Made by a program: the position numbers and the translations under genes. Under the pieces are notes generated by a model. That model was not told the origin of the DNA and did no database searches. It worked only from the letters and a program-made list of their open reading frames with translations. Below, one piece after another: positions 2,669-20,615 of a DNA stretch of 64,000 nucleotides. The stretch comes from Planctomycetota bacterium. GTDB lineage: Bacteria > Planctomycetota > Planctomycetia > Pirellulales > PLA5. Position 1 is the first letter of the stretch, and the number at the start of each line of letters is the position of its first letter. Where the stretch lies: contig QEVJ01000068.1 of NCBI GenBank assembly GCA_003576845.1, positions 1-64,000 on the forward strand, given 5' to 3'.

Positions 2669-2771
2669 GGCATCTTCCCGCGGCCGATCGTCCGGCGCGC
2701 GGAAGCGGCCCAGTCGCCGGACCGAGCCGCGGGTAACGACATCGTGCGAGGCAATTGACGCTCGTAGAGGA

Positions 2772-3107
2772 TCAGTCTTCTTCCTCATCGTCGTCGAATT
2801 CGTCTTCGTCCTCGTCGTCGTCGTAGTCCCAATCCTCGTCCTCGTCTTCATCCTCGTCGAGGTCTTCGTCTTCGTCGTCGACTTCTTCCCAGTCGTCGTC
2901 GTCCTCGTCGTCGAAATCGTCGTCGTCTTCTTCGTCGTCGTAATCGTCCTCGTCGTCGTCGAGATCGTCTTCGTCGTCTTCTACGTCATCTTCGTTGGCG
3001 TCCTCGGCGCGCGGGGCGCGCGGCGAAAACGCGAACAACGACGTGCCGGCGAACGGCCCGTCGTCCAGGTCGAACTCTTCCATCGCGTCGAGGGCGAATA
3101 CACTCAC
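2772..3107 (-). CDS. highly acidic Asp/Glu-rich protein
   Basis: A 111-residue protein. Its first 35 or so residues are of ordinary composition (MSVFALDAMEEFDLDDGPFA). The rest is almost entirely Asp and Glu with scattered Tyr, Trp and Phe, giving an extremely low predicted pI. No domain is recognised. At DNA level the tail is a run of GAC/GAA/GAG codons that looks like a degenerate trinucleotide repeat, so it may expand or contract. The complex N-terminus, the ATG and the continued open frame argue for a real gene. Possible roles include cation binding or a nucleic-acid mimic, but nothing in the sequence decides. Confidence 0.65.
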   Translation of the reverse strand: MSVFALDAMEEFDLDDGPFAGTSLFAFSPRAPRAEDANEDDVEDDEDDLDDDEDDYDDEEDDDDFDDEDDDDWEEVDDEDEDLDEDEDEDEDWDYDDDEDEDEFDDDEEED

Positions 3108-3168
3108 GAAACCAACTCCTTATGAATTCGAAAACGATTAGGTGTACGCGAACCGCGGAACGACCGGA

Positions 3169-3921: not shown

Positions 3922-4095
3922 GAAAGCGATTCCCCGGCGTTCGCCGCAACGACCGCAGCGATTTGGGCGGTTCGATCATAAAGCCAATCGACCCGCCGGA
4001 AAAGCTGCCCGGCACGGTCCGCGCGCCGCGGCCGGGGCGTTATAACAATCCCTTCCGTACGCCAGATCGCCCCCTGTCCCGTCGGTAGTGCCGCC

Positions 4096-5712
4096 ATGCC
4101 CGAAGCTCGACCGCCTGCCGATCCCGCGACCCCCGACACCGTCGTGCGCACCTGGCAGGAGCCGCCGCGCGTACTTTCGGGCATTCTGCGGCAACTTGGG
4201 CCGGGCCTGATCATTGCCGGGTCAATCGTCGGGTCCGGCGAACTGATCGGCACGACGCGAACCGGCGCCCAGGCGGGTTTCTTTCTCCTCTGGCTGATCG
4301 TTATCGGTTGCGTCATCAAAGTTTTCGTCCAGGTCGAATTCGGGCGCTACGCCCTTAACACGGGCAAGGCCACGATGGCTGGGCTAAACGAGGTCCCCGG
4401 CCCCCGGCTGGCCAGAGCGAACTGGATTCTCTGGTATTGGCTCGTCATGTTCTTGATTTCTCTCGGCCAGCTCGGAGGAATTGTCGGCTCGGTCGGCGAG
4501 GCCCTGGCGATCACCTGGCCGGTCACCGACCAGGGACGGATTTACCACCATGCCCGGGCCCTTGACATTGAGCGTCATACGCTCGACGCCCGACTCGAAA
4601 ATGCCGGCCGGGCGGCGGCGGGAAGTTCCACGCTGGCTCGCGATGCCCGCGACGAAATCTCCCGCCGCATTGCCGCGATCGACGCGGAACTCGCCCCGCT
4701 GGGCACGCCGGAGCGCGGCCAGGACGCGAAGATCTGGGCCACGCTCGTTACCGTCTTTACGTCCGTGCTGTTGGTCGTGGGCCGTTACGGCCTGATTCAG
4801 AGCGTTGCGACGTTTCTGGTCGCAGCGTTTACGCTGGCGACCGTCGCTAACGTCCTTGCGCTGCAAACGATCGACGAGTGGGCGGTGCATTGGAGCGACT
4901 TCGCTCTTGGGTTCAGCTTCCAACTGCCCGAGAGCGGCAAAGCGATCGGCACCGCCCTGGCCACGTTCGGCATCATCGGCGTGGGGGCGAACGAGTTGAT
5001 CGCCTATCCTTATTGGTGCGTCGAGAAGGGATACGCCCGCTATACCGGAGCGGCCGCGGCCGACGCTGCCTGGGCAGAGCGGGCACAGGGCTGGATGCGC
5101 GTCATGCGGTGGGATGCCTGGTGCTCGATGGTCGTCTACACGTTCGCCACCGTGGCATTCTATTTGCTCGGCGCGGCCGTGCTGAGCCGCATCGGCTTGA
5201 TCCCCAGCGACGACGACTTGATTCTCACGCTCTGCGTCATGTACCAGCCGGTGTTCGGCGCTTGGGCGATGTGGCTGTTCTTGTTCGGCGCGTTGGCAGT
5301 GCTGTACTCGACGTTTTTCATCGCCAACGCCGGACATGCCCGCGTCGCTGCCGATGCCGGGCAAGTGCTGGGAGCGATCGGAAACACGGCGGCGGCGAAG
5401 TCGCGGGCAACGAAGCTTCTCTGCGGCGCCTTTCCGCTGATTTGCCTCGCCGTTTACGTCGTGTTTCCCAAGCCCACGACGCTCGTCCTGCTCAGCGGAG
5501 CCATGCAGGCAATCATGCTGCCGATGCTCGCCGTCGCCGCGCTTTACTTTCGGTACCGCCGTTGCGACCGCCGGGTCATGCCGGGCAAACTCTGGGACGC
5601 CCTCTTATGGGTTTCGGTCGCCGGCCTGTTCGTCGCCGGCGGATGGACGACCTCTGACGCTGGCGGAAAGCTAGTCGAACAGATTTCCCGGTGGTTCGAG
5701 ACGGGCACGTAA
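4096..5712 (+). CDS. Nramp-related metal ion transporter-like protein
   Basis: A 538-residue multi-pass membrane protein. The segment LGPGLIIAGSIVGSGELIGT aligns by pattern with Nramp transmembrane helix 1. The canonical DPGN metal-binding motif is missing, with VGSG in its place, so substrate and coupling cannot be assumed to be Mn/Fe plus H+. Later helices (FGIIGVGANELIAYPYWC and the FFIANAGHARVAAD region) fit the same superfamily. An unusual hydrophilic, helix-prone segment of about 60 residues lies at residues 150-215, between two membrane helices. No partner gene is adjacent; the YbaK-like gene is convergent. The family call is good; the substrate is unknown. Confidence 0.75.
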   Translation: MPEARPPADPATPDTVVRTWQEPPRVLSGILRQLGPGLIIAGSIVGSGELIGTTRTGAQAGFFLLWLIVIGCVIKVFVQVEFGRYALNTGKATMAGLNEVPGPRLARANWILWYWLVMFLISLGQLGGIVGSVGEALAITWPVTDQGRIYHHARALDIERHTLDARLENAGRAAAGSSTLARDARDEISRRIAAIDAELAPLGTPERGQDAKIWATLVTVFTSVLLVVGRYGLIQSVATFLVAAFTLATVANVLALQTIDEWAVHWSDFALGFSFQLPESGKAIGTALATFGIIGVGANELIAYPYWCVEKGYARYTGAAAADAAWAERAQGWMRVMRWDAWCSMVVYTFATVAFYLLGAAVLSRIGLIPSDDDLILTLCVMYQPVFGAWAMWLFLFGALAVLYSTFFIANAGHARVAADAGQVLGAIGNTAAAKSRATKLLCGAFPLICLAVYVVFPKPTTLVLLSGAMQAIMLPMLAVAALYFRYRRCDRRVMPGKLWDALLWVSVAGLFVAGGWTTSDAGGKLVEQISRWFETGT

Positions 5713-5780
5713 TCGCGCCGAACGCCACGCGGGCCCTTACGCGGATTTCACCGTTGGATATCGCCGCAGCGTCGCCTCGG

Positions 5781-6257
5781 TCACTTCGGCTTCACCGGCC
5801 GTTCGACGATATCGACCACGAGCGGGTGCTCGAGGCGCACGAATTCGCCGTAAGGCAACCGAATCGCCTCGGTGTGCGAGTTTCCTTGAAAGAAAATGTC
5901 TTCATGCTTGGCCAGCGATTCGTCGACGACCGTCTTCATGCCAAAACGCGACCCAAACGGCGGGAGGATGCCGAACTCGCACTCCGGGCAGTGCTCGGCA
6001 ATCTCCACCTCGGTCGCCAGCCGTATCTCCGCCCCGCCAAGGGCTGCCGAGACGCGCCGCAGATCGAGCCGGGCCGGGGCGGGAAGCACGGCAACGACAT
6101 ACAGGAAGTCCCCATCGGCGCGGAGCAAAACCGTCTTTGCGACGTTCTCGCCAGGCACCCGCAGCGCGGCAGCGAGGTGCTGGGCGTCGAACGTCTCATC
6201 GTGCGGATAGGTTCGATAGGCGACGCGCGCTTCATCGAGGATTTCGGTGGTTTTCAT
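5781..6257 (-). CDS. YbaK/ProX-type aminoacyl-tRNA deacylase domain protein
   Basis: A 158-residue stand-alone YbaK/EbsC-fold protein. Members hydrolyse mischarged aminoacyl-tRNAs in trans. Visible family blocks are NVAKTVLLRADGDFLYVVAV with its conserved Lys, the ATEVEIAEHCPECEFGILPP segment, and a glycine-rich FGMKTVVDESL strand near the end. Length is typical for a free-standing editing factor. The exact tRNA and amino-acid specificity (Cys-tRNA(Pro), Ala-tRNA(Pro) or other) cannot be read from the sequence. It lies tail to tail with the Nramp-like gene and 57 bases downstream of the baeRF-like gene on the same strand, so it may be co-transcribed with it. Confidence 0.82.
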   Translation of the reverse strand: MKTTEILDEARVAYRTYPHDETFDAQHLAAALRVPGENVAKTVLLRADGDFLYVVAVLPAPARLDLRRVSAALGGAEIRLATEVEIAEHCPECEFGILPPFGSRFGMKTVVDESLAKHEDIFFQGNSHTEAIRLPYGEFVRLEHPLVVDIVERPVKPK

Positions 6258-6314
6258 CGGAGAATTCTCCCTGCGTAACGCATTTGTTGGTGGTTAGCGG
6301 TCGGCGGATACGGG

Positions 6315-7490
6315 TCAGGCGCCGGCGGGAACCTCGGCACTAAACCGGAGTATGGCGGCCATTGCGCCTCCCCCGGGCACGTAACCGGTCGCGGTCGTCG
6401 CCACGCTGCCGCCGCGGCGGACCACGTTTACCGCGGCCGTATTGATCAGGCTGTCGCTATCGAGGCGGCGTTCCCCATCCACGCGGACGTCACCGGTGAG
6501 CGGGTCGAATCGGCCCCACAGCGGAAGACTCGGATCGATAAACAGCATGTCGACCACTCCCGCCTGCGAATCGCGGACGATCTGCTCGGCGCGCTTCTCG
6601 GTCTTGCCGCCCGAGGCGTTCTTCCAGTATCGGTCGATATCGGCGTCTGTCCGGCCTTCGCGCGCTTCGGCGAGCAGGACCCGCGCGCGCTCGGCGAGCG
6701 TTTGCGACGAAGCGTAGTCCGGGCTTCCGGAAAGGTGGCTCGCGAACAGGCGGCTTGCCGTGTTGACTTCCTTGTAGATCGGAAACAGGTAATCGACGCC
6801 GGCAAAGATCAAGGGCAGATCGTCGTTTTCCATGGCGGCGGCAACGGCGCGATCCACCCGTCGCAGGTACTCGACCAGTTCCTTCTTTGCCGCGTCGGCC
6901 GCGCCGCCCTGACCGTGAAACACGAGGCTTTGCTTTCCGGGCAGGCCGGGCGACGCGGTGTGCGTTTGCGATCGTTCTTCGGGCTCATCGTATCCGAGCG
7001 ACTCGATTCCCGTCTCCGGCAGGCCGGCGACCGCGACTTCGACGAGTTCGTCGTTTGCACAGCGCATGAGCCGCGCCCGCTTCTGGCTGACCGCGAGCAG
7101 AAAATAGGCTGCCTGCACGTTGAACGTCGCAATTAGAGGAACGATGTAAAACGTTGTCCCGGCGGTTGCAACTTCGGGACACTGCGTCGGCAGCGGCCAC
7201 GTCCGGACGCCGGTTGCGTCGATGAGAATCGCGGCGCCCTTGGCGGGCGTTCGCCAGAAACTTGCGTCTTCCGCGACTCGGCTGGCGGCGGCCAACAGTC
7301 GGTCTGCATCCTCCTCGGCCATACCGCGCGCGAGCAACCGTTGGCGGGCGTCACGGAGCAGGTTCTTGTAACGGACCGAGGCCTGCTGGTTCTGTTCTCC
7401 TGCGACGTGGGTCGGCAAATAAATCGACACGCGCCAACCGCCGTCCGCAGCCGAAACCTGCTCCAAGTCTTGTCGAGTAATTGCGGTCAT
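6315..7490 (-). CDS. bacterial release-factor-like (baeRF) protein
   Basis: A 391-residue protein starting MTAITRQDLEQVSAADGG. The early segment VSIYLPTHVAGEQNQ and following RYKNLLRDARQRLL match the N-terminal pattern of the baeRF families, bacterial relatives of archaeal/eukaryotic peptide release factor eRF1. A Gly-rich element (HGQGGAADAAKKELVEYL) falls where eRF1 proteins carry their GGQ-type loop, and the C-terminal region (GGSVATTATGYVPGGGAMAA) resembles the eL30-like third domain. A ribosome-rescue or stress role has been suggested for the family but is not proven. The frame is open further upstream, but that extension is antisense-like and overlaps the NUDIX gene. Confidence 0.62.
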   Translation of the reverse strand: MTAITRQDLEQVSAADGGWRVSIYLPTHVAGEQNQQASVRYKNLLRDARQRLLARGMAEEDADRLLAAASRVAEDASFWRTPAKGAAILIDATGVRTWPLPTQCPEVATAGTTFYIVPLIATFNVQAAYFLLAVSQKRARLMRCANDELVEVAVAGLPETGIESLGYDEPEERSQTHTASPGLPGKQSLVFHGQGGAADAAKKELVEYLRRVDRAVAAAMENDDLPLIFAGVDYLFPIYKEVNTASRLFASHLSGSPDYASSQTLAERARVLLAEAREGRTDADIDRYWKNASGGKTEKRAEQIVRDSQAGVVDMLFIDPSLPLWGRFDPLTGDVRVDGERRLDSDSLINTAAVNVVRRGGSVATTATGYVPGGGAMAAILRFSAEVPAGA

Positions 7491-7560
7491 CGGTGAGTTC
7501 CTCTCGCTTTGGGTCGTTGACGAACTTCGAGCCTGTGGATCTTGAATGTTCGCGGCCGTG

Positions 7561-7992
7561 CTATTCGGCGCGGCGATCGCGCTTCGGCAGTGTTGCTCCC
7601 AGCGTCTCCTCCAGCCGGTCGAGGAAAACCGCCTGATCGCGGTGCATCCTTTTGCGGGCCTCGTCGAGCGGCACGAACTCGGCGGCGTCCACTTCCCACG
7701 AAGCGCACGCGGGCTTCGCATCCGGTGGCGCCTCGGCGCAAAAGCAGTGGACCCGCTTGCGTCGACTGCGGTAGACGACGTCGCCAAGCGACGCAATGTC
7801 GCCGGGTAGAATTCCGACTTCCTCCCACGTTTCGCGCCGCGCCGTATCGGCGAGCGGTTCTTCGGGTGCAGGAATTCCCTTAGGAATGCCCCAGGGAGCG
7901 CGGCGGTTGTAGTTGCCTGAAGGATGGACGAGCAGCACTTCAATGCCGCGATTCGAGTGGCGAAAGAGTAGCGTTCCGGCGGACGTTTGCAT
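7561..7992 (-). CDS. NUDIX hydrolase
   Basis: A 143-residue NUDIX-fold pyrophosphohydrolase starting MQTSAGTLLFRHSNRG. The NUDIX box is complete: PWGIPKG leads into GIPAPEEPLADTAR, then RETWEEVGI, supplying the metal-binding glutamates. The local pattern LLFRHSNRGIEVLLVHPSG is like diadenosine-polyphosphate or dATP-type NUDIX enzymes, but substrate cannot be assigned. I chose the ATG at 7992 because GGGAG lies about nine bases before it; an in-frame upstream extension to 8100 exists but is Arg-rich and unlike the family. The baeRF-like gene begins 70 bases downstream on the same strand, so they may share a transcript. Confidence 0.88.
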   Translation of the reverse strand: MQTSAGTLLFRHSNRGIEVLLVHPSGNYNRRAPWGIPKGIPAPEEPLADTARRETWEEVGILPGDIASLGDVVYRSRRKRVHCFCAEAPPDAKPACASWEVDAAEFVPLDEARKRMHRDQAVFLDRLEETLGATLPKRDRRAE

Positions 7993-8278
7993 CGCGAGGC
8001 TCCCAACGGGCGGTTGTCCATTCGCCGAGCGGAAATCTGCGTGCGGCCGAGCGCGCCACGTTGTCTCAGCCGCGCGAATCCGCTCGCGGTATCTTGGCAT
8101 TGCGTTCCTGCGGTTCGCGAAACGAATTCGTTCGGAGTTGCGAGCAAACTGGCGTGGGCGGCATGGCGGCGCCGCACGAAGTAACCACGCGATGCACTTG
8201 CTGTGCCATGCCGGCGCCGCCCGCGAGACGAATCGGGTTTCGCGCAGCCGAGCGTCGATTTAGCGGGAAACGGTACGC

Positions 8279-9268
8279 CTACGGCAGCGCTTGGAAACCG
8301 TTTCCTTTGCCGCTACCCGGGGTCTTGAATATGTCGAGAAACCGATCTTCGTACTCGGCGAAAACTCCGATCCGGTCGAGTTCGCGTTTGAGTTCGTATG
8401 CCTTCGACCGATCTTGCCGAGCCTGATCGAAAAGTTCGCCGATGCGCCGCTCGTCCTCCCGGGTCAGCCGCGGCTGCTCGTCCTCTTCTTTTGCCGACCA
8501 CAGGCCGAATTCGTCCTCGCCTTCGTCTTGCTCGTGCTGGCGTTGCGCTGCCATTTGAGCTTCGACTTGCTCGAGAAGGTCTTCAAGTTGCTTTTCCATC
8601 GTTTCGGCCTGCGATTCCAGTTCGCCGAGATCGACCTGGATGCCGGATATACGGCCAAATGCGCGTAATACCGACAGCGATGCCTTGGGAAATGGAAGCT
8701 GCGCGAACAACTGGGGCGATTCACCCAGCAGGCATACGCCGGGAATGTTCTTTTCGGCGGCCGTGCCGACGAGCACGCCATTAAGCCCGCCGATCCGTCC
8801 TTCCTGGAGCACCTCGACGTCGTTCGCCCAGACTTCCTCCAACGTGGCGGCATTCGTGGCGGCGGCAAACACGCGCGACGGCGCCGACGGCCGCATCTCG
8901 GTCGCCATCGCGGCGAACGTGACGATCTTTTCGATCCCGAGCCCGTGGGCGAACTCCACCAGCCTCTGACAGAAGGCATGTCGCCCGGTGGGCGGCTGCG
9001 CCTCGCCGATAAACACGACGAGGTCGCGCTTCTCGGCCGGATCCTTCCAAACGAAGAACCGACTCCGCGGCAGCCGCGCCGTCTGGATTAGGCCTTTTTC
9101 AACCGTTACGGCCTCGACGTCGAACAACTCGCGGGCCGAAAACTCGGCAAATAGATGCATGCCGAGCTTTGCCATCAAATAGTAGCCGGCACTGATGGCG
9201 ACGTGCCCAATACCGGGCCACGCCGCGACGAGCCAAGGATGGTTCAATTTGAGTGGAGCTTCAGCCAT
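8279..9268 (-). CDS. PAC2-family (proteasome assembly chaperone-like) protein
   Basis: A 329-residue PAC2-domain protein. The N-terminal two thirds hold the domain: WLVAAWPGIGHVAISAGYYL, the DLVVFIGEAQPP strand, the GIEKIVTFAAMATEM segment and the GVCLLGESPQLFAQLPFP segment. The last 110 residues are charged and helix-rich (EDLLEQVEAQMAAQRQHE onwards), likely a coiled coil. PAC2 proteins are known as eukaryotic proteasome assembly chaperones, with homologues in archaea and bacteria whose roles are largely unknown. No proteasome gene is nearby. It is transcribed divergently from the ccm operon. Confidence 0.82.
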   Translation of the reverse strand: MAEAPLKLNHPWLVAAWPGIGHVAISAGYYLMAKLGMHLFAEFSARELFDVEAVTVEKGLIQTARLPRSRFFVWKDPAEKRDLVVFIGEAQPPTGRHAFCQRLVEFAHGLGIEKIVTFAAMATEMRPSAPSRVFAAATNAATLEEVWANDVEVLQEGRIGGLNGVLVGTAAEKNIPGVCLLGESPQLFAQLPFPKASLSVLRAFGRISGIQVDLGELESQAETMEKQLEDLLEQVEAQMAAQRQHEQDEGEDEFGLWSAKEEDEQPRLTREDERRIGELFDQARQDRSKAYELKRELDRIGVFAEYEDRFLDIFKTPGSGKGNGFQALP

Positions 9269-9586: not shown

Positions 9587-10072
9587 ATGCTGCCTTCGCC
9601 CGATCCGTCGTCTTCGGTTTCCCGCCGTGCATACGCCGGGCGGCGATATGTCCCGATACTTCTGGGGGCGACCACGATTCTCGGGGCAACTGTCTACGCC
9701 GCTTTTCTTGCCACCGATACGAGTTGGAAGTATTACGTCACGGCCGATGAATGCGTGGCGGAACTTGTGGCGCTGCGCGGTAGCCGCGTTCGCGTGAGCG
9801 GCGTCGTCGAAACCGGGACGCTCGACGTCAACGGCGAACGGTCCAGGGCCGCGTTCAAGCTGCGGGGAAGGAAAGAACTCCTCGAAACCGTGTGCACGGG
9901 AACCTTACCGGACAACTTGCAGGAAGGAATGGAAGTCGTCGTCGAGGGTTACTTGCAGAGGGACGGATCGCTCTGCGGCGACAAGGTGCTGACCAAGTGC
10001 GCCAGCAAGTACGACGAAGCCGGTGAGCAAGGAACGAATGTTGCCCGCCGCCGGGCCGACCGGAATCTCTGA
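9587..10072 (+). CDS. ccmE: CcmE haem chaperone, Cys (CxxxY) variant
   Basis: CcmE takes haem covalently from the CcmABCD complex and delivers it to the CcmF haem lyase outside the membrane. The 161-residue protein has one N-terminal membrane anchor (about residues 21-42), then an OB-fold-like domain with RGSRVRVSGVV and a GMEVVVEGYL strand. The haem-binding position reads LTKCASKYDE, so Cys138 replaces the usual His while Tyr142 is kept. This CxxxY form is known from Desulfovibrio and archaeal variant Ccm systems. Start is uncertain: ATG 9575 is one base after AGGAGG (9568-9573), ATG 9587 is 13 bases after it. ccmF begins three bases after the stop. Confidence 0.88.
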   Translation: MLPSPDPSSSVSRRAYAGRRYVPILLGATTILGATVYAAFLATDTSWKYYVTADECVAELVALRGSRVRVSGVVETGTLDVNGERSRAAFKLRGRKELLETVCTGTLPDNLQEGMEVVVEGYLQRDGSLCGDKVLTKCASKYDEAGEQGTNVARRRADRNL

Positions 10073-10074
10073 CC

Positions 10075-12135
10075 ATGCGAAACGTCGGCGAGTTGTGCCT
10101 GTTCGCGACGCTCGTGCTCTCGGGCGTTGCCGCGTTCGTCGGGCTATCGCCGGGCCTGGCAATCGTGCGCCGGCTGAGAGCGGGCGTGACGTTTGCCGTA
10201 AATGTGTGCCTGGTTCTGCTCACAGTCGTCGTGGGAATTCTCGCCGTGGCTCTGTGCCGCTGCGATTTCGCATTCGACTACGTCGCCCGAAACTCCAGCG
10301 AGTTGCTGCCGTGGTATTACTCGCTCTCGTCGTTGTGGGTTGGCCAGGCGGGGTCGTTGCTGCTGTGGGCGTGGTTTTTGACGGTGCTGGCGGCGGCGTT
10401 TCGCTGGCGGCGGCGACGTGCGGAGATTGCGACGGACATAGGGCCGGCGAATGATTCCGTCGCGCAAGCCGGCGGCGGGAACGTCGATCGTTTGGCCGAG
10501 CCGACCTGCGGCGTGCTGATGGGCTATTTGGCCTTCTTGGTGGCGATTATGGTCTTCGCCGCCGATCCGATGGCAGCCAACCCACGAATCTCCAGCGACG
10601 GGGCTGGCCTAAGTCCGCTGTTGCAACATCCGGCGATGCTCATTCACCCACCGGTCGTGTTTCTCGGATACGCGCTGTGGACGATGCCGTTTGCCTTGGC
10701 GATCGCCGCGCTCGCTACCGGTCGAACCGAGGGCGATTGGCTTCCGCAAGCGCGAAGATGGTCGCTTGCTGCCTGGATGGTGCTGGGAGCGGGGATTCTG
10801 CTTGGCGCGCAATGGGCCTACGAGGAACTCGGCTGGGGCGGCTACTGGGGGTGGGACCCGGTCGAAAACGGGTCGTTGATTCCCTGGATTGCCGGTACGG
10901 CGGCCGTACATGCGCTCATGGTCTGGCAGCATTGCAAGACGCTCAAGAAAACGGCCGTCGCGCTGGTGATCGCGACGTTTGGGCTGTGCAACTTCGCGAC
11001 GTTTTTGACCCGCAGCGGCGTGTTCAGCAGCCTCCATGCATTTAGCAACTCGCCGATCGGTTGGCTGTTTCTCGCCCTGATGGCCGCACTGCTGGCAAGC
11101 GGCGGGTACTTGCTCGTGCGGCGGCGGGCCCTGCTTGCGGCGGATCGACCTTGGGGCGCGGTTCTCAGCCGCGAGTCGGTGATTCTTGTGGCGATCGTCG
11201 CCCTCATGCTGTTTCTTACCGCCGTGCTTGGCGGAACGCTCAGTTCGGCCATTTCGAGCGCGGTGGCCGAGCGGGTGATTCTCGTCGGCCCGAGCTTCTA
11301 CAACGGAGCGTTGCTGCCGGTGGCGCTCGTGTTGCTGCCGGCGACGGCCTTGGCGCCGCTCTTGCGCTGGGGAAAGTCGCCGACAGGAACACAGGCACGC
11401 TGTATCGCCGCGAGCGCTGCCGCGGGGTCGACCGTCGGCGCGGGTTTGTTCGCGATGGGCGCCCTTGCCGCCTTGCCGGCCGCCGTCGCGGGCATCGGCG
11501 CGTTCTCGGTGGCTTCGCTTGTCGCCGCGCTCGGCATTGACGTCGCCAAGCGGACATCCGAATCGCACGTCGCCGGATTCGTCGGAACAGTGGCCCTCCG
11601 CAGGCCGTTGTACGCGGGCTTTGTGGTTCATCTTGGCTTTGTTGCCCTGTCGTTGGGAGTCGCGGCGTCGAGTGCCGGGTCGCGGCAACAGGACGTTCGC
11701 TTGCCGCCCGGAGATGCAATCGACTGGAACGGGCGTCGAGTGCGTTTCGTCGAGCCGCGCGAGCGGATGCTGCCCGATAAGATGATCGTCGAAGCCGAAC
11801 TGGTCGTGGCGTCGCCGTCGCGCGAGGTCGTCCTTGCGCCGGCGCGGCACTTCCACCGGTTAGCGGGCGACTGGACGACCGAAGTCGCGATCGACTCGAC
11901 GCTGTGGAGCGACGTCTACGCGATCCTGCACGGAACCGACGCCGAAGGACGCGTGCGGCTCACGCTCATCGAGAATCCGATGGTCGCCTGGATTTGGCTC
12001 GGGGGAATCGTCATGGGAATTGGCGGGCTGCTGCGATTGTGGCCGGCGCGGCGACGGGATGCTGCCCGCAATCCGGTGTCGACAAACGCGACCGTGCGCG
12101 CCGCGCCGTTGAAACCGCTGCGCGACGCGGCCTGA
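10075..12135 (+). CDS. ccmF: cytochrome c haem lyase subunit CcmF
   Basis: CcmF attaches haem from CcmE to CxxCH motifs of apocytochromes. This is a 686-residue protein with many membrane helices, close to usual family length. Family signatures include SLSSLWVGQAGSLLLWAW, the HPPVVFLGYALWTMPFALA segment with conserved His, and the tryptophan-rich WWD loop GWGGYWGWDPVENGSLIPW. LTRSGVFSSLHAF follows, as in other CcmF proteins. The C-terminal 150 residues contain a soluble, externally exposed stretch before the final helix. It follows ccmE by two bases. In variant systems lacking CcmH it is expected to act without that partner. Confidence 0.95.
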   Translation: MRNVGELCLFATLVLSGVAAFVGLSPGLAIVRRLRAGVTFAVNVCLVLLTVVVGILAVALCRCDFAFDYVARNSSELLPWYYSLSSLWVGQAGSLLLWAWFLTVLAAAFRWRRRRAEIATDIGPANDSVAQAGGGNVDRLAEPTCGVLMGYLAFLVAIMVFAADPMAANPRISSDGAGLSPLLQHPAMLIHPPVVFLGYALWTMPFALAIAALATGRTEGDWLPQARRWSLAAWMVLGAGILLGAQWAYEELGWGGYWGWDPVENGSLIPWIAGTAAVHALMVWQHCKTLKKTAVALVIATFGLCNFATFLTRSGVFSSLHAFSNSPIGWLFLALMAALLASGGYLLVRRRALLAADRPWGAVLSRESVILVAIVALMLFLTAVLGGTLSSAISSAVAERVILVGPSFYNGALLPVALVLLPATALAPLLRWGKSPTGTQARCIAASAAAGSTVGAGLFAMGALAALPAAVAGIGAFSVASLVAALGIDVAKRTSESHVAGFVGTVALRRPLYAGFVVHLGFVALSLGVAASSAGSRQQDVRLPPGDAIDWNGRRVRFVEPRERMLPDKMIVEAELVVASPSREVVLAPARHFHRLAGDWTTEVAIDSTLWSDVYAILHGTDAEGRVRLTLIENPMVAWIWLGGIVMGIGGLLRLWPARRRDAARNPVSTNATVRAAPLKPLRDAA

Positions 12136-12167
12136 AGCCTTCGCAAAACGACGTTCGAGTACGGTAT

Positions 12168-12914
12168 ATGCCTTTGATGCGTCACGCGAGCGAATGCCCG
12201 GTGGTCGAGCGCGAGTTTGCGCTCGAAGCGCAGTCGCTATCGGTAGATTACGGGCATCGGCGCATTTTGCGGTCGCTGACCATCGCGATTCGCCCTGGAG
12301 AGATCGTCGAATTGCGCGGCGGGAACGGATCGGGCAAGACGACGTTGCTGCGATGTCTGGCCGGCATCGTGCGTCCGACGCTGGGGCGAGTCACCTGGTT
12401 TGGCGAACCGGCCGGGTGTTGCACGGCGATGCGGAAGTGGCTTGGCGTGCTTGCGCACGAAAGTAGCCTCTATTCCCATCTGACGCTGGCCGAAAACCTG
12501 TTGTTCGTCGCCCGCGTTTGCGGCGTGGAGCGGCCGCGGGAGCGAGTTGCCGAGGCACTACACGAGATCGGACTGGCGGATCGAAGCCAATGCACGCCGC
12601 CAAAGGTTTCCCGCGGCACGCGGCAACGTGTGTCGATTGCCCGGGCGTTCCTTCACGGGCCGCGCGTCGTGCTGCTGGACGAACCGTTCACCGGGCTGGA
12701 TGCGGCGGGCCGCGATTGGCTCGTCGCGCGGCTCGCGAGGGCGCGAGACGAAGGGCAGACCGTGTGCCTTGCCACGCACGAGCAGGTTGGGTCGCTCGCC
12801 GTGTGCGATCGCGTATTCACCTTGCACGACGGAAAGTTCACGGCGAACGAAGCAACAGCCGACCATCCGCCGATCGGCGTTGCGAACTCGAAACAACGTA
12901 TGCCTGCGGCTTGA
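12168..12914 (+). CDS. ccmA: haem exporter ATP-binding protein CcmA
   Basis: The ABC ATPase that powers release of haem-loaded CcmE from CcmC. The 248-residue protein has Walker A GGNGSGKTT (residues 51-59), Walker B RVVLLDEPFTGLD and the switch His in LATHEQ. The ABC signature is divergent, reading VSRGTRQRVSIARA where most transporters have LSGGQ; CcmA signatures are often loose. I place the start at ATG 12168, 32 bases after ccmF, because upstream in-frame sequence is a shadow of ccmF. ATG 12177 is a second option. ccmB begins three bases after the stop. Confidence 0.9.
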   Translation: MPLMRHASECPVVEREFALEAQSLSVDYGHRRILRSLTIAIRPGEIVELRGGNGSGKTTLLRCLAGIVRPTLGRVTWFGEPAGCCTAMRKWLGVLAHESSLYSHLTLAENLLFVARVCGVERPRERVAEALHEIGLADRSQCTPPKVSRGTRQRVSIARAFLHGPRVVLLDEPFTGLDAAGRDWLVARLARARDEGQTVCLATHEQVGSLAVCDRVFTLHDGKFTANEATADHPPIGVANSKQRMPAA

Positions 12915-12917
12915 ATC

Positions 12918-13595
12918 ATGCGCCATGCAATGCACAACCTGTGCTGGATCCTCCACAAGGATTTGCTGACGGAGCTGCGGTCGCGCGGGGCATGGTCGAC
13001 GATGGTGCTGACGGGAATCGTGGTCGCGGTGATTTTCAGCGTGCAAAGCGAAGCAGCCGCGGCGTACAAGCAGCAAACGATCGGCTGCTTGCTGTGGATG
13101 GCGGTGTTTTTGGCCGCAATTCCGATGATGGATCGAGGTTTCGCAATCGAACGCGAGAACGGTTGCTGGGACGGGCTGCGACAATTGCCGGTCGCAGGGA
13201 GCGTGATTTTTATCGCCAAGCTGGCGGCCAACGTCCTGGCATTGGGAATTCTCGAATGCTTGTTGATGCCGTTGTTTTTCGTGCTTTCGAGCGTGCCCCT
13301 GCCCGGCGGCGCGGGCCCGCTCGTGCTCGTAGCATTGCTTGCGAACATCGCCCTGGCGTCTGTCGGGACGACGGTCGGTTGTTTGGGCGTTGGACGCCGG
13401 AGCGGCGCGGCGCTGGTCGTGCTCGTGTTGCCGCTCCTGATTCCCGTCCTGCTGGCGGCGGCCGAGTGTACGCGGCTGACCGTGGCAGGGAACGCGGGCG
13501 AAGTGTACTGGCGATGGTTGCAGTTGCTGGCCGTGTTCGATGTGTTGTTCGTCGCGGCCGGCCTGGTGTTGTTCGAAACGGCGAGCGAGGAGTAA
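12918..13595 (+). CDS. ccmB: haem exporter membrane protein CcmB
   Basis: A 225-residue permease-like subunit with six predicted membrane helices that pairs with CcmA and CcmC. The N-terminal cytoplasmic segment HNLCWILHKDLLTELRSR is typical of CcmB (KDLxxExR pattern), and the first-loop DRGFAIERENGCWDGL block is also characteristic. Length equals the usual 220 or so residues. It is tightly packed between ccmA and ccmC, so these are expected to be translated from a single mRNA. Confidence 0.92.
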   Translation: MRHAMHNLCWILHKDLLTELRSRGAWSTMVLTGIVVAVIFSVQSEAAAAYKQQTIGCLLWMAVFLAAIPMMDRGFAIERENGCWDGLRQLPVAGSVIFIAKLAANVLALGILECLLMPLFFVLSSVPLPGGAGPLVLVALLANIALASVGTTVGCLGVGRRSGAALVVLVLPLLIPVLLAAAECTRLTVAGNAGEVYWRWLQLLAVFDVLFVAAGLVLFETASEE

Positions 13596-13599
13596 TGCG

Positions 13600-14283
13600 A
13601 TGAACGAAGCAACTCGCGGAGCGATGTGGAGATTTGCGGCGTTGCGCATCGTATTGGCGGCGTGGCTGGCGACGGCCGTATGGCTGGCCCTCGGTTTTGC
13701 GCCGACGGAACGGACGATGGGCGACGCGCAGCGGATCGTCTACGTCCACGTGCCCGTGGCATGGTTGGGATTGCTGTGGATGCTGGTAACAGCCGGCTGC
13801 GGCGCGGCGTACCTAGTCCGGCGCAATCTGTGGTGGGATGCGTGGGCACATTCGGCGGCCGAGGTCGGCTGGGTATGTTGCTCGCTGACCTTGGTGACGG
13901 GATCGCTTTGGGCGCGATCCGCCTGGGGCACGTGGTGGGAATGGGACCCGCGGCTCACCACGGCGTTCATCTTGTGGCTGATTTATTCGGGCGTGCTGTT
14001 TGCGCGGTCGAGCGTCGAGGAACCGCACCGGCGGGCGCGCGTTGGCGCCGCGCTGGCGATTCTCGGATCGCTGGACATCCCGATGGTCGTGATGGCCACG
14101 CGGTGGTTTCGCGGGTTGCACCCGATGAATCCGGAAATGACGCCGGCGATGCGGATTACGCTGCTCGTGGGTGTCGTGGGATGGACGGCCGCGTTCGCGT
14201 GGCTCGCCAATTTGCGGCGCAAGCAGATCGGCATGGAGCGGATCGTTCGGCAGTCGCAATCGGTGTTGGAAGCGGCGTGTTAG
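13600..14283 (+). CDS. ccmC: haem-handling protein CcmC
   Basis: CcmC presents haem to CcmE at the outer face of the membrane. The 227-residue protein has six membrane helices, the WWD motif WGTWWEWDPRLT, and the flanking haem-ligand histidines in YVHVPVAW and GLHPMNP. The start at 13600 follows the ccmB stop by four bases; an upstream in-frame extension only re-reads ccmB in another frame. The family is shared with CcsA/CcmF, but size and position make CcmC clear. Confidence 0.94.
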   Translation: MNEATRGAMWRFAALRIVLAAWLATAVWLALGFAPTERTMGDAQRIVYVHVPVAWLGLLWMLVTAGCGAAYLVRRNLWWDAWAHSAAEVGWVCCSLTLVTGSLWARSAWGTWWEWDPRLTTAFILWLIYSGVLFARSSVEEPHRRARVGAALAILGSLDIPMVVMATRWFRGLHPMNPEMTPAMRITLLVGVVGWTAAFAWLANLRRKQIGMERIVRQSQSVLEAAC

Positions 14284-14304
14284 TCCGGCGGGAAACTCGA
14301 AAAG

Positions 14305-14487
14305 ATGGAGCCGATGATGACGACGGCGGTGTTGGGCTTTGGAATCGTGTGTGCGGCGATTGTCGCGTTCGTGTGCCGGTTGGAACTTCGGCAGCGCAAG
14401 TTAGCGCGTCAGTACGACGCGCTTGCGAGCGCGGTTCAAGATTGCGACGACGCACGGGGCGAGCGGCGGCTGGAGCGTGCCGCTTAG
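14305..14487 (+). CDS. ccmD: CcmD-like small membrane protein
   Basis: A 60-residue peptide with a single hydrophobic helix near the N-terminus (AVLGFGIVCAAIVAFVC) followed by a charged tail (RLELRQRKLARQYDAL). CcmD proteins have this shape and stabilise the CcmABC-CcmE complex. Sequence conservation in CcmD is weak, so the call rests on size, topology and position directly after ccmC. The start may be any of the Met codons at 14305, 14314 or 14317; GAAAAG precedes the first. Confidence 0.65.
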   Translation: MEPMMTTAVLGFGIVCAAIVAFVCRLELRQRKLARQYDALASAVQDCDDARGERRLERAA

Positions 14488-14526: not shown

Positions 14527-15543
14527 GTGTCATTTTCTGCGGTAATTCTGGCGACGTGGCTGGCAACTGCGGTCGTCGCGCCGCCAGACGGCACGATTGA
14601 CGGGATCGTGGTCAACCTTTCGCGCGACGGCCGGCCGGCTGCGGAGGTGGAGGTCGAACTGCGCGCGGAACTCGACGGCGAGCTCGTGCCCGTGGCCCGC
14701 ACGCGAACCGACGCCCGCGGCGCATTCGCGTTTCGCGGCGTGCCACTCGATCGGACGTTGACCTACGTTGCGGGGGCGAATCGGGACGGCGTTCAATACG
14801 CGACTTCCAAATTCGCCTTGGGACCCGAACGGCGCACGGCGCACGTGCGGTTGAACGTGCGCGACGCGGAGACGGAAAGCAATCCGCTAGTACTTCGGCG
14901 GCACGACGTGGTGATCGAGCCGGCGCCCGGTGTGTTGCACGTAACGGAAGCCTTGCTCGTCGATAACCCGACGGCGAAGACCTATGTGGGAAAGGCCCGC
15001 GGCGACGCGCCGATGCCGGTGACGTTTGAACTAGGCATTCCGACCGACTTCGAACGGCTCACGTTCGAGGAAGAGTTTTGGGGCCGCAGCTTTGCGCTCG
15101 TCGGCGGCAAAGTCGTCGCGAGCGTGCCGTGGGAACCGGGCCAGCGGTGGGTGCGATTTACGTATTCTGCCCGGAACGAAGCGGCGTATCGGCGGTGGGA
15201 GCGGGCGATCGACGCGCCGTGCGAACGGATGTCCGTGCGCGTGAAGGGGAGCGGCGGGGAGAACATCGAATGCAGCCTCCCCTTCGACGGAGAGGCAGGG
15301 GACCGGGCCGTTTTCGCGGCCGCGGGACAGTCGCTCGCGGCGGGAGATGCGGTGTGGGTCGGGTTGGGAGACTTGCCGGTGTCGTGGACGACCTACGCAC
15401 GTTGGGCCGCCGTCGCCGTGCTGGCGTTAACTGTCGCAAGCCTCACGTACTGGAGCCGGCGTCGCAATAAGTCGGCGCGCGGCTCCAACGCGCAATTAAC
15501 GTCGGTACATGCTCAGCGGCACCAACGCCGACGCGCAGCGTAA
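14527..15543 (+). CDS. membrane-anchored extracytoplasmic protein behind the ccm genes, function unknown
   Basis: A 338-residue protein with a GTG start preceded by GGGGAG. It has an N-terminal signal-like helix, a beta-rich domain at about residues 22-112 resembling carboxypeptidase-regulatory-like (Ig-type) folds (GIVVNLSRDGRPAAEVEV), a second unassigned region, and a C-terminal membrane helix at about 291-309. It ends in a basic, probably cytoplasmic tail. It has only two cysteines after the signal (232 and 249) and no CxxC, so it is not a CcmG/CcmH-type thiol reductase. It follows the ccmD-like gene by 39 bases on the same strand, so it is probably in the operon. A role as apocytochrome chaperone or cytochrome complex assembly factor is speculation. 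Confidence 0.7.
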   Translation: MSFSAVILATWLATAVVAPPDGTIDGIVVNLSRDGRPAAEVEVELRAELDGELVPVARTRTDARGAFAFRGVPLDRTLTYVAGANRDGVQYATSKFALGPERRTAHVRLNVRDAETESNPLVLRRHDVVIEPAPGVLHVTEALLVDNPTAKTYVGKARGDAPMPVTFELGIPTDFERLTFEEEFWGRSFALVGGKVVASVPWEPGQRWVRFTYSARNEAAYRRWERAIDAPCERMSVRVKGSGGENIECSLPFDGEAGDRAVFAAAGQSLAAGDAVWVGLGDLPVSWTTYARWAAVAVLALTVASLTYWSRRRNKSARGSNAQLTSVHAQRHQRRRAA

Positions 15544-16175: not shown

Positions 16176-16447
16176 CGTGCGAGGCTTGACGAATGTTCGG
16201 CTGGCTACGCCCTCGGTCGGAGCCGCGGCAGCCGCAACGCGGTCACGGTATCAGCGTTCTGCCGCCCTGTCCAGCAATACAAAATCGCGCTTGGCTCTAC
16301 GTGGAAAATCACCGGCCAAGATATTTGGCGCGGGAGCATCGCGACGCTAAACTTTTCGGTCGGACTCGGGCAAACGGTACGTCGCTTGCTGCTCGCACTG
16401 GCTGATTGCTATTACTCCCGACCACTTTGCAACGGAGTTACCCGACC

Positions 16448-17020
16448 ATGATCGCTTACGCAAGTCGAAATTGGCGCGCCATCGTGTGTTCGATCGTCGT
16501 CGTTGGCGTCGTGACGTTGGGATTCGCGCTATCCCAAGCGCCGCTGGCCGTCGCGCAATCGGACGATGCGAAGAAGGCGCCGGCCGCGGCCGAACCTGCG
16601 CCGCCGGAAGGTCAAACGTATGTGGGTACGAAGCGCTGCGCGGCGTGCCACTTCGACCAGTTCCTCAAGTGGAAGAAGACCAAGCACTCGCAAGCGTTCG
16701 ACGTGCTCACCGCCAAGTACCAGGCGGATGCCAAGTGTCTGAAATGCCATACGACCGGTTATGGCGAGGCGACCGGCTTCAAGGATAAGGCCAAAACGCC
16801 CGACCTGTTGGCCGTGTCGTGCGAGAACTGCCACGGCCCGGGCAGCAAACACGAGGAAGTGGCCAAGACGTTCAGCGCGGTAAAGAAGCTGTCGCCCGAA
16901 CAGGACAAAGCGGTGCGCGACACGATTTGGAAGATGCTGCCGCAGAACGTGTGCGTGACGTGCCACATGGTGCAGGGGCACCACGAATCGCAGACGCCGC
17001 CGGAACTGCGGAAGAAGTAA
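16448..17020 (+). CDS. tetrahaem cytochrome c (c554-like)
   Basis: A 190-residue exported protein with a signal peptide (cleavage probably after AVAQS, near residue 37) and four CxxCH haem sites: CAACH, CLKCH, CENCH and CVTCH. The spacing and the TYVGTKRCAACHFDQFLKWK opening resemble the cytochrome c554-type fold. It should be a periplasmic or paryphoplasmic electron carrier whose haems are attached by the Ccm system encoded just upstream. It is convergent with the multihaem/cytochrome b operon, which makes it a likely donor or acceptor for that complex, though this is inference. Confidence 0.88.
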   Translation: MIAYASRNWRAIVCSIVVVGVVTLGFALSQAPLAVAQSDDAKKAPAAAEPAPPEGQTYVGTKRCAACHFDQFLKWKKTKHSQAFDVLTAKYQADAKCLKCHTTGYGEATGFKDKAKTPDLLAVSCENCHGPGSKHEEVAKTFSAVKKLSPEQDKAVRDTIWKMLPQNVCVTCHMVQGHHESQTPPELRKK

Positions 17021-17139: not shown

Positions 17140-18657
17140 CTAATGGTGCGACGGGTCGTAACGCGACTCGGGTAGCGGCGTGCGGCGAATGGTGGCCACG
17201 AGCAATCCGACCACAATCAGGATCGGCACCAACGAGCCGGCCAACCACCAGCGGCGATAGGTGTGCTCGCGGAGCGCGGCGGCGGCGGATTCTTGAACCG
17301 ATGCCGTAACCTTGAGGCCCTCATCGACCGCTTCGTCTACCGGTCCCGGCTTGAAGGTATGAATCAGCGTGCGGGCGTTGGTCAGCGCGTCGAAGGCTTG
17401 ATGCAGGTCGTAGCGCGAACCGCGGACTTCCATGCCGAGGCGTTCGGCCTCGCGCACCTTGTCTCCGGCAAGCTCAATGTTCCGTTTGAGCTCGTCGAGC
17501 TTCGCGTGGATGTTCTTCGCCAGGTCGGCGCCCGCCAGGGTCGCTCCCAGTTGCGGGTTGGCCGGGTTGTGGCATTTCGCGCACAGGGCGCCATCGCCCA
17601 TTCCGATCATGCTGTCGCCGGGGTTGAATGTCTGGTGCGTTCCGTGACAGACGGCACATCCGGGCATTCCGGCAACCTCGAACTTATGTTTCATCCGTGT
17701 TTCTGCGAACAGCTTCGAGACCTTCCCGTGGCACGTTCCACAGGCGTTGGCCACGGAGCCGACGCTGGGCGGCAGCGCGCCGTGGTTGCCGTGGCAATCG
17801 TTGCACGTGGGGGCGCTAATGTCTCCCTTGGAGAGCATCGCCACGCCGTGGACGCCCTTGGTCCATTGCTCGTACTGGTCGTGTCCGAGCCGGCGGCCGT
17901 CGTACGTTCGGCCTTCCATGAGTTTGGCGTCGGAATGGCACTTGGAGCACGTTTGCGCGACGTTCGTCGGATACACCGGCGAGTTGACATCCTTGACCGC
18001 CAGAATACCGTGTCCGCCGTGGCAACTAATGCAGGTTGCGACGCCCGCATCCGCCTGAGCGTTCTCCCCGGCGGCGCTGGCCTTGAGACGTTGCCCGTGG
18101 CCGCTGGTCCAATATTCCGTTTCCTGGTCGGTTCGGGCCGACGGCGAGAACTTTCGCATGTAGTCCAGATTCGAATGGCAATGCCCGCAGAACGTAATCG
18201 AGTCCTGGCGGACGCGCAAGCTGCGGAAGTCGGGATCGTCGCGGTGGTTCTTGAACGACTCCAGCGTCTCGCTGCCCCCGTGACAATCGTGGCAGCGCAG
18301 CCCCTTCTTCCAATGAACGTCGTTGGTCAAATGCGATTCGTCGACGGTCGGCGTCGTCTCGTTCCAGAGATCGCCGCCCTTTTTGTGGCAGGTCAGGCAC
18401 GAGTAGTCGTCCGGCAATGGTCCTCCGGCGGGCGGCGTCTGCGAGGAAGCATTCGCGGCCGCATCCGTCGGTTCCGCCGGCGCCGTGGATGCGTCGGCGG
18501 CTGCCGGCGCGTCCGCGGCCGGAGCTTGAGCCGCCTCTGGCTCTTGCACGACGGCAACCAGCTCTCCGCGGAGCGCCGGGATTCCCAACGTACTCATTGC
18601 CGCGGCCGCCAAGATCACCGCGAGCAACATGGCTGTCGGCCGGCTATCGCGTTTCAT
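17140..18657 (-). CDS. nine-haem membrane-anchored cytochrome c
   Basis: A 505-residue protein with an N-terminal signal-like helix, a long Ala/Pro-rich linker (about residues 35-75), then nine CxxCH sites: CLTCH, CHDCH, CGHCH, CISCH, CSKCH, CNDCH, CGTCH, CAVCH and CAKCH. A helical stretch and a C-terminal membrane anchor (WWLAGSLVPILIVVGLLV) follow. Its ATG overlaps the stop of the cytochrome b gene by four bases, so the two are translationally coupled. This is the position where cytochrome c1 or f would be expected; none is encoded here, so this protein probably carries electrons out of the bc-type complex. Confidence 0.9.
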   Translation of the reverse strand: MKRDSRPTAMLLAVILAAAAMSTLGIPALRGELVAVVQEPEAAQAPAADAPAAADASTAPAEPTDAAANASSQTPPAGGPLPDDYSCLTCHKKGGDLWNETTPTVDESHLTNDVHWKKGLRCHDCHGGSETLESFKNHRDDPDFRSLRVRQDSITFCGHCHSNLDYMRKFSPSARTDQETEYWTSGHGQRLKASAAGENAQADAGVATCISCHGGHGILAVKDVNSPVYPTNVAQTCSKCHSDAKLMEGRTYDGRRLGHDQYEQWTKGVHGVAMLSKGDISAPTCNDCHGNHGALPPSVGSVANACGTCHGKVSKLFAETRMKHKFEVAGMPGCAVCHGTHQTFNPGDSMIGMGDGALCAKCHNPANPQLGATLAGADLAKNIHAKLDELKRNIELAGDKVREAERLGMEVRGSRYDLHQAFDALTNARTLIHTFKPGPVDEAVDEGLKVTASVQESAAAALREHTYRRWWLAGSLVPILIVVGLLVATIRRTPLPESRYDPSHH

Positions 18658-19901
18658 CCCAAAGTCTCCCACCAGGTTGCGACGGCCAGAACGGCGATCG
18701 CCAGCGTCAGGCCGGCGTAGACGAGTTTCCGGCCGTTCGAGCCGGGCGCAGTGAACGGAATCAGCAACGGGAGCACGACGACGGTCTGTATGCCGCCAAG
18801 AATCACGCGGAGGGTCGTTTGCTCCGCGCCCGAAAACCAGCCCCAAGACGTCATCGCAATGAAGAACGCGACGGCCACGGCCGCCAAGGAAGCCAGCACG
18901 GCGCGGCTTATTTTTCCCCGATCGAGAAATGGAGCAAACAACACGATAAGACCGCAGGCGCCGAAGAACAGCACGCCGACAACTTCGCCCTCGAACGGTC
19001 CGAGATGCGCAGGGAGCACCTTGAGCGCCTGGAACATGAACAGGAAGTACCACTCCGGTTTGATGTTGTCGGGCGCCGGTTTGAACGGATCGGCCTTATC
19101 CCCGAGTTCCCAGGGAAACAGCGCGGCGAGCGCGGCGAGAATCGCCAGGGCCAGATACCAGCCGACCATGTCGCGCAGCAGAAAGTGGGGCAAGAAAGGC
19201 ATGGCCCGCAAGCCGCCCTTGGAACGGGCGTCGGCGACGATCTTCTCCGGCACGCTCATGCCGTGTTTCTGCACGAGAAACAAATGGACGCCCAACACGG
19301 CAAAGGTCAGCATGGGAAGCACGACCACGTGCAGCGAATAGAACCGCGCCAACGTATCGCCGGTCACGTCTTCGCCGCTACGGGCGAGCAGCAACAGTTG
19401 TTTGCCCACGACCGGCACGACGCCGACGATGGCGGTTCCAACGCGGGTCGCGAAAAACGCCAACTCGTTCCAGGGCAGGAGATAGCCGCTGAAACCGAAA
19501 GCCAGGAACAGCCCCAACAACACGATGCCGGTCATCCACGTCAGTTCGCGGGGGCGGCGATACGCCCGCATCATAAAGGTCGTGAGCAGGTGCAAGAACA
19601 AGACGCCGACGAGCAGGTTCGCGCTCCACGAATGCGCCGAGCGGATCAGCCAGCCGAAGTCGACTTCCGTGACGATTGCCTGGACGCTCTCGAAGGCCTG
19701 GTCGGGCGACGGCTTGTAATAGAGCGACAGCAAAATGCCGGTGCCGATTTGCACGAGAAAGAGGAAGATTGCCATGCCGCCGAAATAGTAGAACGGCGTG
19801 GAAGCGTGTATCGGCACGAGCTTGTTGCGAGCCAACCCCAGCAGGACGTCGAGGCCCAACCGCTCCTCCAAGAATCCCACGAAACGTCGTCGCGTGTTCA
19901 C
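18654..19901 (-). CDS. cytochrome b of a bc-type quinol-oxidising complex
   Basis: A 415-residue protein joining the N-terminal four-helix haem domain and the C-terminal domain. Helix B haem histidines are in HSWSANLLVGVLFLH (13 residues between). Helix D histidines are in HVVVLPMLTFAVLGVH, with 14 residues between, the spacing known for cytochrome b6 rather than mitochondrial cytochrome b. The quinol-site motif is present as PEWYF. It lies between the Rieske gene and the nine-haem cytochrome, all minus strand. The complex should oxidise quinol and pass electrons to the Rieske cluster and a c-type haem. Confidence 0.95.
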   Translation of the reverse strand: MNTRRRFVGFLEERLGLDVLLGLARNKLVPIHASTPFYYFGGMAIFLFLVQIGTGILLSLYYKPSPDQAFESVQAIVTEVDFGWLIRSAHSWSANLLVGVLFLHLLTTFMMRAYRRPRELTWMTGIVLLGLFLAFGFSGYLLPWNELAFFATRVGTAIVGVVPVVGKQLLLLARSGEDVTGDTLARFYSLHVVVLPMLTFAVLGVHLFLVQKHGMSVPEKIVADARSKGGLRAMPFLPHFLLRDMVGWYLALAILAALAALFPWELGDKADPFKPAPDNIKPEWYFLFMFQALKVLPAHLGPFEGEVVGVLFFGACGLIVLFAPFLDRGKISRAVLASLAAVAVAFFIAMTSWGWFSGAEQTTLRVILGGIQTVVVLPLLIPFTAPGSNGRKLVYAGLTLAIAVLAVATWWETLG

Positions 19902-19967: not shown

Positions 19968-20462
19968 CTAGGCCGGGCTCTGCTTGGAAACCACGATTTC
20001 CTCCTGTCCCGGCTCGCCGCGGAGCGTCACGACGTAGGCTTCGAGCGGTCGCGGCGGCGGCCCGGAAACGTTTCGGCCGTTCAAGTCGTAGATGCCTTCG
20101 TGACAGGCGCAGTAGATGTCGCCGTTCTCCTGGCGATACTTCACCGTGCAGTCGACGTGCGTGCACACGGCATTGAAGGCCCGCAAGTCGTCGGCCTGGA
20201 TCGCTTGGCCGGCTGCAAGCCGCTTCGCGCCGTCAGGCGTGAGCACGACCAGGCAGGGCTTGCCGCCGAAATCGAAGGGGTTGTTCTTGGCCTGCAAGAT
20301 CTCCTTGACGCGAAACGGGGCGACGACCTCCAACGCGCCGGAGGCCGTCGCCGCACGCGGCCGAAGGAACCGCAGCACGGGATAGAGGATGGCGCCCCAC
20401 GTCGCCACCATAGCCGCGGTCAGTCCACCGATGAGCACGTTTCTGCGATGCGGTTGATTCAC
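19968..20462 (-). CDS. Rieske [2Fe-2S] protein of the bc-type complex
   Basis: A 164-residue Rieske protein with one N-terminal membrane helix (about residues 10-30, after HRRNVLIGG, which fits a Tat-type export signal). Cluster ligands are in CTHVDC and CACHEG, followed by YDLNGRNVSGPPPRPLEAY, the usual Pro-loop. I chose the GTG at 20462; another GTG at 20516 gives 18 more residues, and neither has a good ribosome binding site. It is 66 bases upstream of the cytochrome b start and 153 bases downstream of the 12-haem gene, in the same direction. Confidence 0.92.
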   Translation of the reverse strand: MNQPHRRNVLIGGLTAAMVATWGAILYPVLRFLRPRAATASGALEVVAPFRVKEILQAKNNPFDFGGKPCLVVLTPDGAKRLAAGQAIQADDLRAFNAVCTHVDCTVKYRQENGDIYCACHEGIYDLNGRNVSGPPPRPLEAYVVTLRGEPGQEEIVVSKQSPA

Positions 20463-20615
20463 ATTACGCCCACGGATGAAAGAGGATTGCGTGAGGATTG
20501 CGTTTTGTCTGCCCACGATCGGACGTGGCGTCTGGGTTCTGGATTCTCCTAAAATGAGGCGCTGCGTCGAAGTAGTCGCGTCGTCGTTCGATCACTCGAA
20601 ACGGCTCGTGCCGCT

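Follow-up and report, generated by a model that had tools for sequence, protein, structure and literature searches.

The first 64,000 nucleotides of contig QEVJ01000068.1 from a Planctomycetota bacterium of the order Pirellulales (assembly GCA_003576845.1; this whole stretch is hereafter called the window) contain a cytochrome c maturation (Ccm) operon at 9587-14487, followed on the same strand by the gene for an unnamed Ccm-linked protein, here called W (14527-15543). Classified by its sequence, the operon is of System I*, the cysteine-type Ccm variant with a CxxxY CcmE, without CcmH and with no CcmG above the cut-off. Taken as a whole, the data are best explained, with somewhat better than even confidence, by a System I* operon in which W acts together with the haem lyase CcmF.

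The core operon and its assignment to System I*

Six closely spaced genes with intact open reading frames (ORFs) make up the operon, in a source genome of 7.05 Mb that is 99% complete. An earlier note, made from the sequence alone, had described a tightly packed ccmE-F-A-B-C with a ccmD-like gene, and profile matches confirmed this arrangement, all on the + strand: ccmE (9587-10072; Pfam/NCBIfam CcmE, 2e-19), ccmF for a haem lyase of 686 amino acids (10075-12135; CcmF_C, 4e-40), ccmA for the ATP-binding cassette ATPase (about 12168-12914, its start being approximate; TIGR01189, above cut-off), ccmB (12918-13595; PF03379, 2e-22), ccmC (13603-14283; Cytochrom_C_asm, 4e-30) and the ccmD-like gene (14305-14487). 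The last encodes a transmembrane helix with a basic tail and matches TIGR04391 weakly (E 0.23); its position 3' of ccmC and its form are kept in other Pirellulales loci.

Alignment with CcmE of E. coli MG1655 placed C138 opposite H130 and Y142 opposite Y134, bearing out the note's reading of KCASKY as a motif with Cys for the haem-binding His. The ligand histidines of CcmF (H191, H279, H321 and H519, equivalent to E. coli 173, 261, 303 and 491) and its WWD motif (WGGYWGWDPVEN) are all kept, as are both ligand histidines of CcmC (E. coli H60 and H184) and the CcmC WWD motif. CcmF can be aligned to the Thermus CcmF structure (6zmq, 2.5e-59), and CcmC to that of E. coli CcmC (7f02, 1.3e-20). Judged on these residues and alignments, the core Ccm machine looks intact.

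CcmE is encoded once in the genome; a second CcmE with HxxxY, which the earlier note had said would speak against its interpretation, was looked for throughout the genome and not found. The other such observation, ccmG and ccmH elsewhere in the genome, was sought as well: no match to the CcmH family PF03918 was detected at E<=1 across the genome, and the best match to CcmG/DsbE (TIGR00385) reached 67 bits against a cut-off of 123, alongside ten weaker TlpA/ResA-like thioredoxin matches. One DsbD-type membrane protein is encoded. The note's assignment to the CxxxY variant therefore holds, with CcmH not found and no CcmG above the cut-off. The System I* of Desulfovibrio was reportedly treated by Allen in 2006 and Goddard in 2010. 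The name System I* covers systems known from Archaea and Desulfovibrio (PMC3601427).

The distribution of these traits was surveyed in 392 genomes drawn from the phylum and 397 from the order Pirellulales. CcmE is present in 41/392 and 17/397 genomes, respectively, and absent from the sole same-genus genome sampled (G399). The CxxxY motif was found in 57/57 fetched planctomycete CcmE ORFs and HxxxY in none. CcmH scored above the cut-off near ccmE in 23 CcmE-containing genomes outside Pirellulales and in 0/17 inside, and a planctomycete CcmH profile added further CcmH matches in loci of the CcmH-containing, non-Pirellulales kind. Because many planctomycetes with CxxxY keep CcmH, the Cys motif is no proof of CcmH loss, and its use as a sign of that loss was rejected. 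The two traits are separable, in agreement with the remark that CcmH is present in about one third of CxxxY bacteria (PMC3601427). The loci of named relatives were picked by their CcmE motif and are biased in this respect; the genome survey is free of that bias. Two unusual CcmE ORFs were also seen: one of 280 amino acids (L087, genome G029) has tandem CcmE domains, the second without CxxxY (ending LSLPSY), and a CcmE-like ORF (L106, genome G166; ECEHAY) is solitary, with no further ccm genes within 8 kb on either side.

Gene W and its linkage to ccmF

The W gene starts 39 bp after the ccmD-like gene and encodes 338 amino acids, in which a signal peptide is followed by two predicted beta domains and, at the C-terminus, a membrane helix. 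The earlier note had stated that the genes after the operon are not ccmG or ccmH. This is correct for 14527-15543, which is nevertheless no unrelated neighbour, since homologues gathered first by tblastn and then by iterative profile search define a conserved Ccm-linked family. W matches only the generic CarboxypepD_reg (carboxypeptidase-regulatory-like) domain, below the cut-off, and otherwise no named family. An alignment of 40 members revealed an invariant Asn and Tyr and near-invariant Gly, Glu and Pro, with no conserved cysteine pair or CxxC. The ratio of non-synonymous to synonymous substitution rates (dN/dS) was 0.14-0.35 in ten close pairs of relatives, indicating purifying selection.

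The AlphaFold2 model of the window W (predicted local distance difference test (pLDDT) score 91, predicted template modelling (pTM) score 0.80) is all-beta, with two domains followed by the membrane helix. A separate model of a poribacterial W (pLDDT 84, pTM 0.60) has the same beta portion and membrane helix and, in addition, a pair of helices on the cytoplasmic side. Three known Ccm proteins were considered as possible identities of W and rejected: a divergent CcmH, as the model is all-beta and not a helical hairpin, with no PF03918 match and no Cys pair; CcmI/CycH, as the model is all-beta and no tetratricopeptide repeat (TPR) match (PF23914 or other) was found in the 40 members; and CcmG, on fold, Pfam/NCBIfam scans and the absence of conserved cysteines. 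Many members outside Pirellulales, mostly from loci with CcmH, have a membrane helix that leads into a CcmI-like coil, an extension not seen in the window W. In genome G114, the W domain is fused behind a CcmH-like segment that contains two Cys (18 bits to the planctomycete CcmH profile, in a one-sequence search and below Pfam detection); a link between W and CcmH on this basis is suggestive only.

After removal of duplicates, 91 planctomycete loci had ccmF and a readable slot, a count that includes L157 and L137, whose phylum labels are other or none. W is present in 88 of them, without CcmH in 61 and with it in 27; two loci have CcmH only, and one (L182) has neither. W and CcmH occur together in every one of the 12 poribacterial loci that could be read through. 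In 86 loci the W gene occupies the interval from ccmF(-ccmH) to ccmA (strain ZRK34, L169, for instance, reads ccmE-F-W-A-B-C); in another 14, all from Pirellulales, it comes after ccmC. It was therefore retained in the ccm locus through a rearrangement. One ccm locus (L148, 13082-15017) has a tandem pair of W genes.

Within Pirellulales, W was found in 15/17 genomes with CcmE and 0/28 without, and nine further genomes of the same class yielded one weak partial match. CcmF occurs in exactly the same 15 Pirellulales genomes and is absent from the 11 CcmE-free genomes tested, so that W is present in 15/15 genomes with CcmF and 0/13 without. The two genomes with CcmE and no W (G565 and G578) also have no CcmF_C: in G565 the contig terminates within ccmF, and in G578 the locus (L068 / L166) reads ccmE-A-B-C, with ccmF gone from locus and genome and W likewise missing, through either loss or an assembly gap. 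Fisher tests gave p values of 2e-11 for W against CcmE state and 3e-8 for W against CcmF state, both made too optimistic by relatedness and operon linkage. A tree of CcmF groups the Pirellulales operons in a single clade (Shimodaira–Hasegawa-like approximate likelihood ratio test support 100) inside a bigger CcmH-less planctomycete group; several deep joins, including the placement of Desulfonatronovibrio, are long-branch and unsafe. W is found on both the CcmH-containing and the CcmH-less sides of this tree, and its origin therefore probably predates the loss of CcmH.

Compared with the System I* of Desulfovibrio (PMC3601427), the planctomycete operon has the same CxxxY CcmE, the same order ccmE-F-A-B-C-D and no ccmG or ccmH gene in the locus. 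The comparison drawn in the earlier note thus stands as to the system; it overlooked the conserved extra gene W, which Desulfonatronovibrio does not have: there, ccmE-F-A-B-C is followed by a TPR (CcmI-type) gene, whereas in the planctomycete locus W is present and a TPR gene is not. The streamlined Ccm of Methanosarcina (PMC9084895) is alike in its CxxxY CcmE and absence of CcmH and CcmI. Archaea have no CcmD and Methanosarcina CcmF is split (PMC9084895), in contrast to the ccmD-like gene, one-piece CcmF and additional W seen here. Two Neomarinimicrobiota loci (L195 4348-4641 and L196 12306-12599) have a CxxxY CcmE, no CcmH and no W, and only a CcmI-like coil of 97 amino acids between ccmF and ccmA. 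In a bin labelled Chloroflexi (L165, 12436-13316), a protein of 91 amino acids resembles the C-terminal membrane hairpin of CcmH and has no cysteine domain; after it comes a CcmI-like protein containing a zinc ribbon. CcmH-less CxxxY lineages differ in their small partner proteins.

System II and likely client cytochromes

Downstream of W lie three multihaem cytochrome genes whose products are likely clients of the operon, together with genes of a bc-type complex. A tetrahaem c554-type cytochrome with four CxxCH (16406-17020, + strand) has homologues that adjoin ccm in several Pirellulales. On the - strand follow a nonahaem cytochrome with nine CxxCH (17140-18600), the cytochrome b (18654-19901) and Rieske protein (19968-20516) of one bc-type complex, and an undecahaem cytochrome with 11 CxxCH and a NapC/NirT-type N-terminus (20616-22376). 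L147, L149 and L152 likewise have the Rieske-cytochrome b-nonahaem set next to ccm, and Phycisphaerae ccm loci have other multihaem genes close by. Many ccm loci have multihaem genes within 10 kb; several have no linked cytochrome set.

Two synthetases of System II (ResB/CcsA) are also present in the genome, identified by PF05140 and PF01578 matches on two other contigs. One is a separate pair on the - strand of contig C128 (ResB 3933-2074, CcsA 2042-177), and the other a fused ResB-CcsA of 1310 amino acids on contig C2 (3530-7462), which can be aligned to the CcsBA structure 7s9y (1.4e-40), with the WWD region (WGRFWGWDPKE) and LHSYG conserved. The C128 pair is divergent from genes for a multihaem cytochrome (4414-5964) and an outer-membrane-barrel-like protein of 752 amino acids (6026-8284), and the whole set (177-8284) looks like a porin-cytochrome set having its own System II. 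ResB is present in 17/17 Pirellulales genomes with CcmE. A general rule coupling CcmH loss to System II was considered and rejected, the signal being driven by Pirellulales (p 0.32 and not significant without them). In the window itself, a CcsA/HemX-like membrane protein encoded immediately 5' of hemA (501-1403) probably serves haem biosynthesis rather than cytochrome maturation.

Anammox planctomycete genomes have been reported with System II only (PMC4222556); the ResB/CcsA genes here are of the same kind, and unlike in anammox planctomycetes both systems coexist. System II is also an addition relative to the Desulfovibrio-type System I*. The earlier note's proposal that the operon is used for many multihaem cytochromes agrees with the adjoining genes with 4, 9 and 11 CxxCH, but exclusive use is not supported, given the two System II synthetases. 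As one of these adjoins a multihaem cytochrome gene, Ccm need not mature every multihaem cytochrome. Going by gene neighbourhood, the operon probably serves the surrounding multihaem cytochromes, alongside System II.

Proposed role of W

We propose that CcmABC(D) would export haem and load CcmE, whose Cys138 is predicted to carry it to CcmF for joining to apocytochromes. W would be a periplasmic protein of two beta domains, anchored by its single C-terminal helix, and a partner of CcmF. It most likely holds or presents the unfolded apocytochrome, a task performed elsewhere by CcmH/CcmI. The one DsbD-type protein, together with TlpA/ResA-like thioredoxins of general function, may supply thiol reduction, and the whole machine would run alongside System II. 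W resembles proteobacterial CcmH and CcmI in its operon slot, in being a membrane-anchored periplasmic protein and in its probable partnership with CcmF, and some members carry the CcmI-like coil or CcmH-like segment. It differs from them in being all-beta with no conserved CxxC, whereas the thiol protein CcmH is helical and CcmI is of the TPR type. W is probably an apocytochrome-handling partner of CcmF and a partial successor of CcmH/CcmI. A bolder form of the proposal, which we put forward tentatively and at somewhat less than even confidence, is that W is an undescribed subunit of the CcmF haem lyase in both Planctomycetota and Poribacteria, a holder of apocytochromes with a beta-sandwich fold and no relation to CcmH/CcmI, which let CcmH be lost and makes cysteine-type Ccm work on multihaem cytochromes.

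Several observations weigh against a role of W with CcmF. Part of their co-occurrence comes from inheritance or transfer of the operon in one piece. W accompanies CcmH in 27 loci from planctomycetes and in every poribacterial one, and so is not simply a CcmH substitute. CcmF without both CcmH and W is seen in planctomycete locus L182, Desulfonatronovibrio, Neomarinimicrobiota and L165; CcmF can therefore operate without W, which is not universally needed. Finally, the best Foldseek matches of both W models, ribophorin I/Ost1 of oligosaccharyltransferase and the N-domains of M1 aminopeptidases, had TM-scores of about 0.3 and about 6-12% identity, and on these models the likeness is one of fold only, with no homology claimed. 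The W-free loci would fit a plain Desulfovibrio-type System I* in which CcmABCDEF is enough and W, a carboxypeptidase-regulatory-like envelope protein, is carried along as a passenger and takes no part in attaching haem; ccmABCEF is enough in Methanosarcina (PMC9084895), and the Desulfovibrio operon is functional without CcmG and CcmH (PMC3601427). However, W has kept its place among the ccm genes in two phyla and despite a shift in its position, it follows CcmF and not CcmE or CcmABC, and some members are fused to or carry CcmH- or CcmI-like parts, and we regard the passenger explanation as unlikely. Less likely still is a function on the haem side, in holo-CcmE release or as a partner of CcmABCD, instead of with CcmF and the apocytochrome. 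The position of the Pirellulales W straight after ccmC-ccmD is consistent with such a function, but a ccmD-like gene is already there, W mostly adjoins ccmF or ccmH, and G578 retains ccmE-A-B-C without ccmF and W.

A further explanation, compatible with a partnership of W and CcmF and given a nearly even chance, concerns the place of the operon in the cell: System II would be the general cytochrome c maturation system of Pirellulales, and Ccm a dispensable specialist with a small number of multihaem clients, for example the linked Rieske-cytochrome b-nonahaem complex. The two System II synthetases, the constant presence of ResB with CcmE in the order, the rarity of CcmE there and its absence from the same-genus G399 argue for this division, as does the recurrence of the Rieske-cytochrome b-nonahaem set beside ccm; the ccm loci with no linked cytochrome set, and the System II pair that itself adjoins a multihaem gene, argue against it. 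The patchy occurrence of the operon in the order and the absence of ccmF from G578 could also be read as decay or loss of function, which is highly improbable for an operon whose window ORFs are all intact, whose ligand residues are all kept and whose W is under purifying selection in relatives.

A review noted that compensation for CcmH in other Ccm proteins may exist, and that bioinformatics had yielded no evidence of it (PMC3601427). W provides a concrete and widespread candidate for how a CcmH-less System I* may work, encoded at the place in the operon that CcmH/CcmI would take. Planctomycete CcmE is as a rule of the CxxxY type, a trait separable from the loss of CcmH. In Pirellulales, the CxxxY Ccm always occurs together with System II, so that how the two systems share the work can be tested within one cell.

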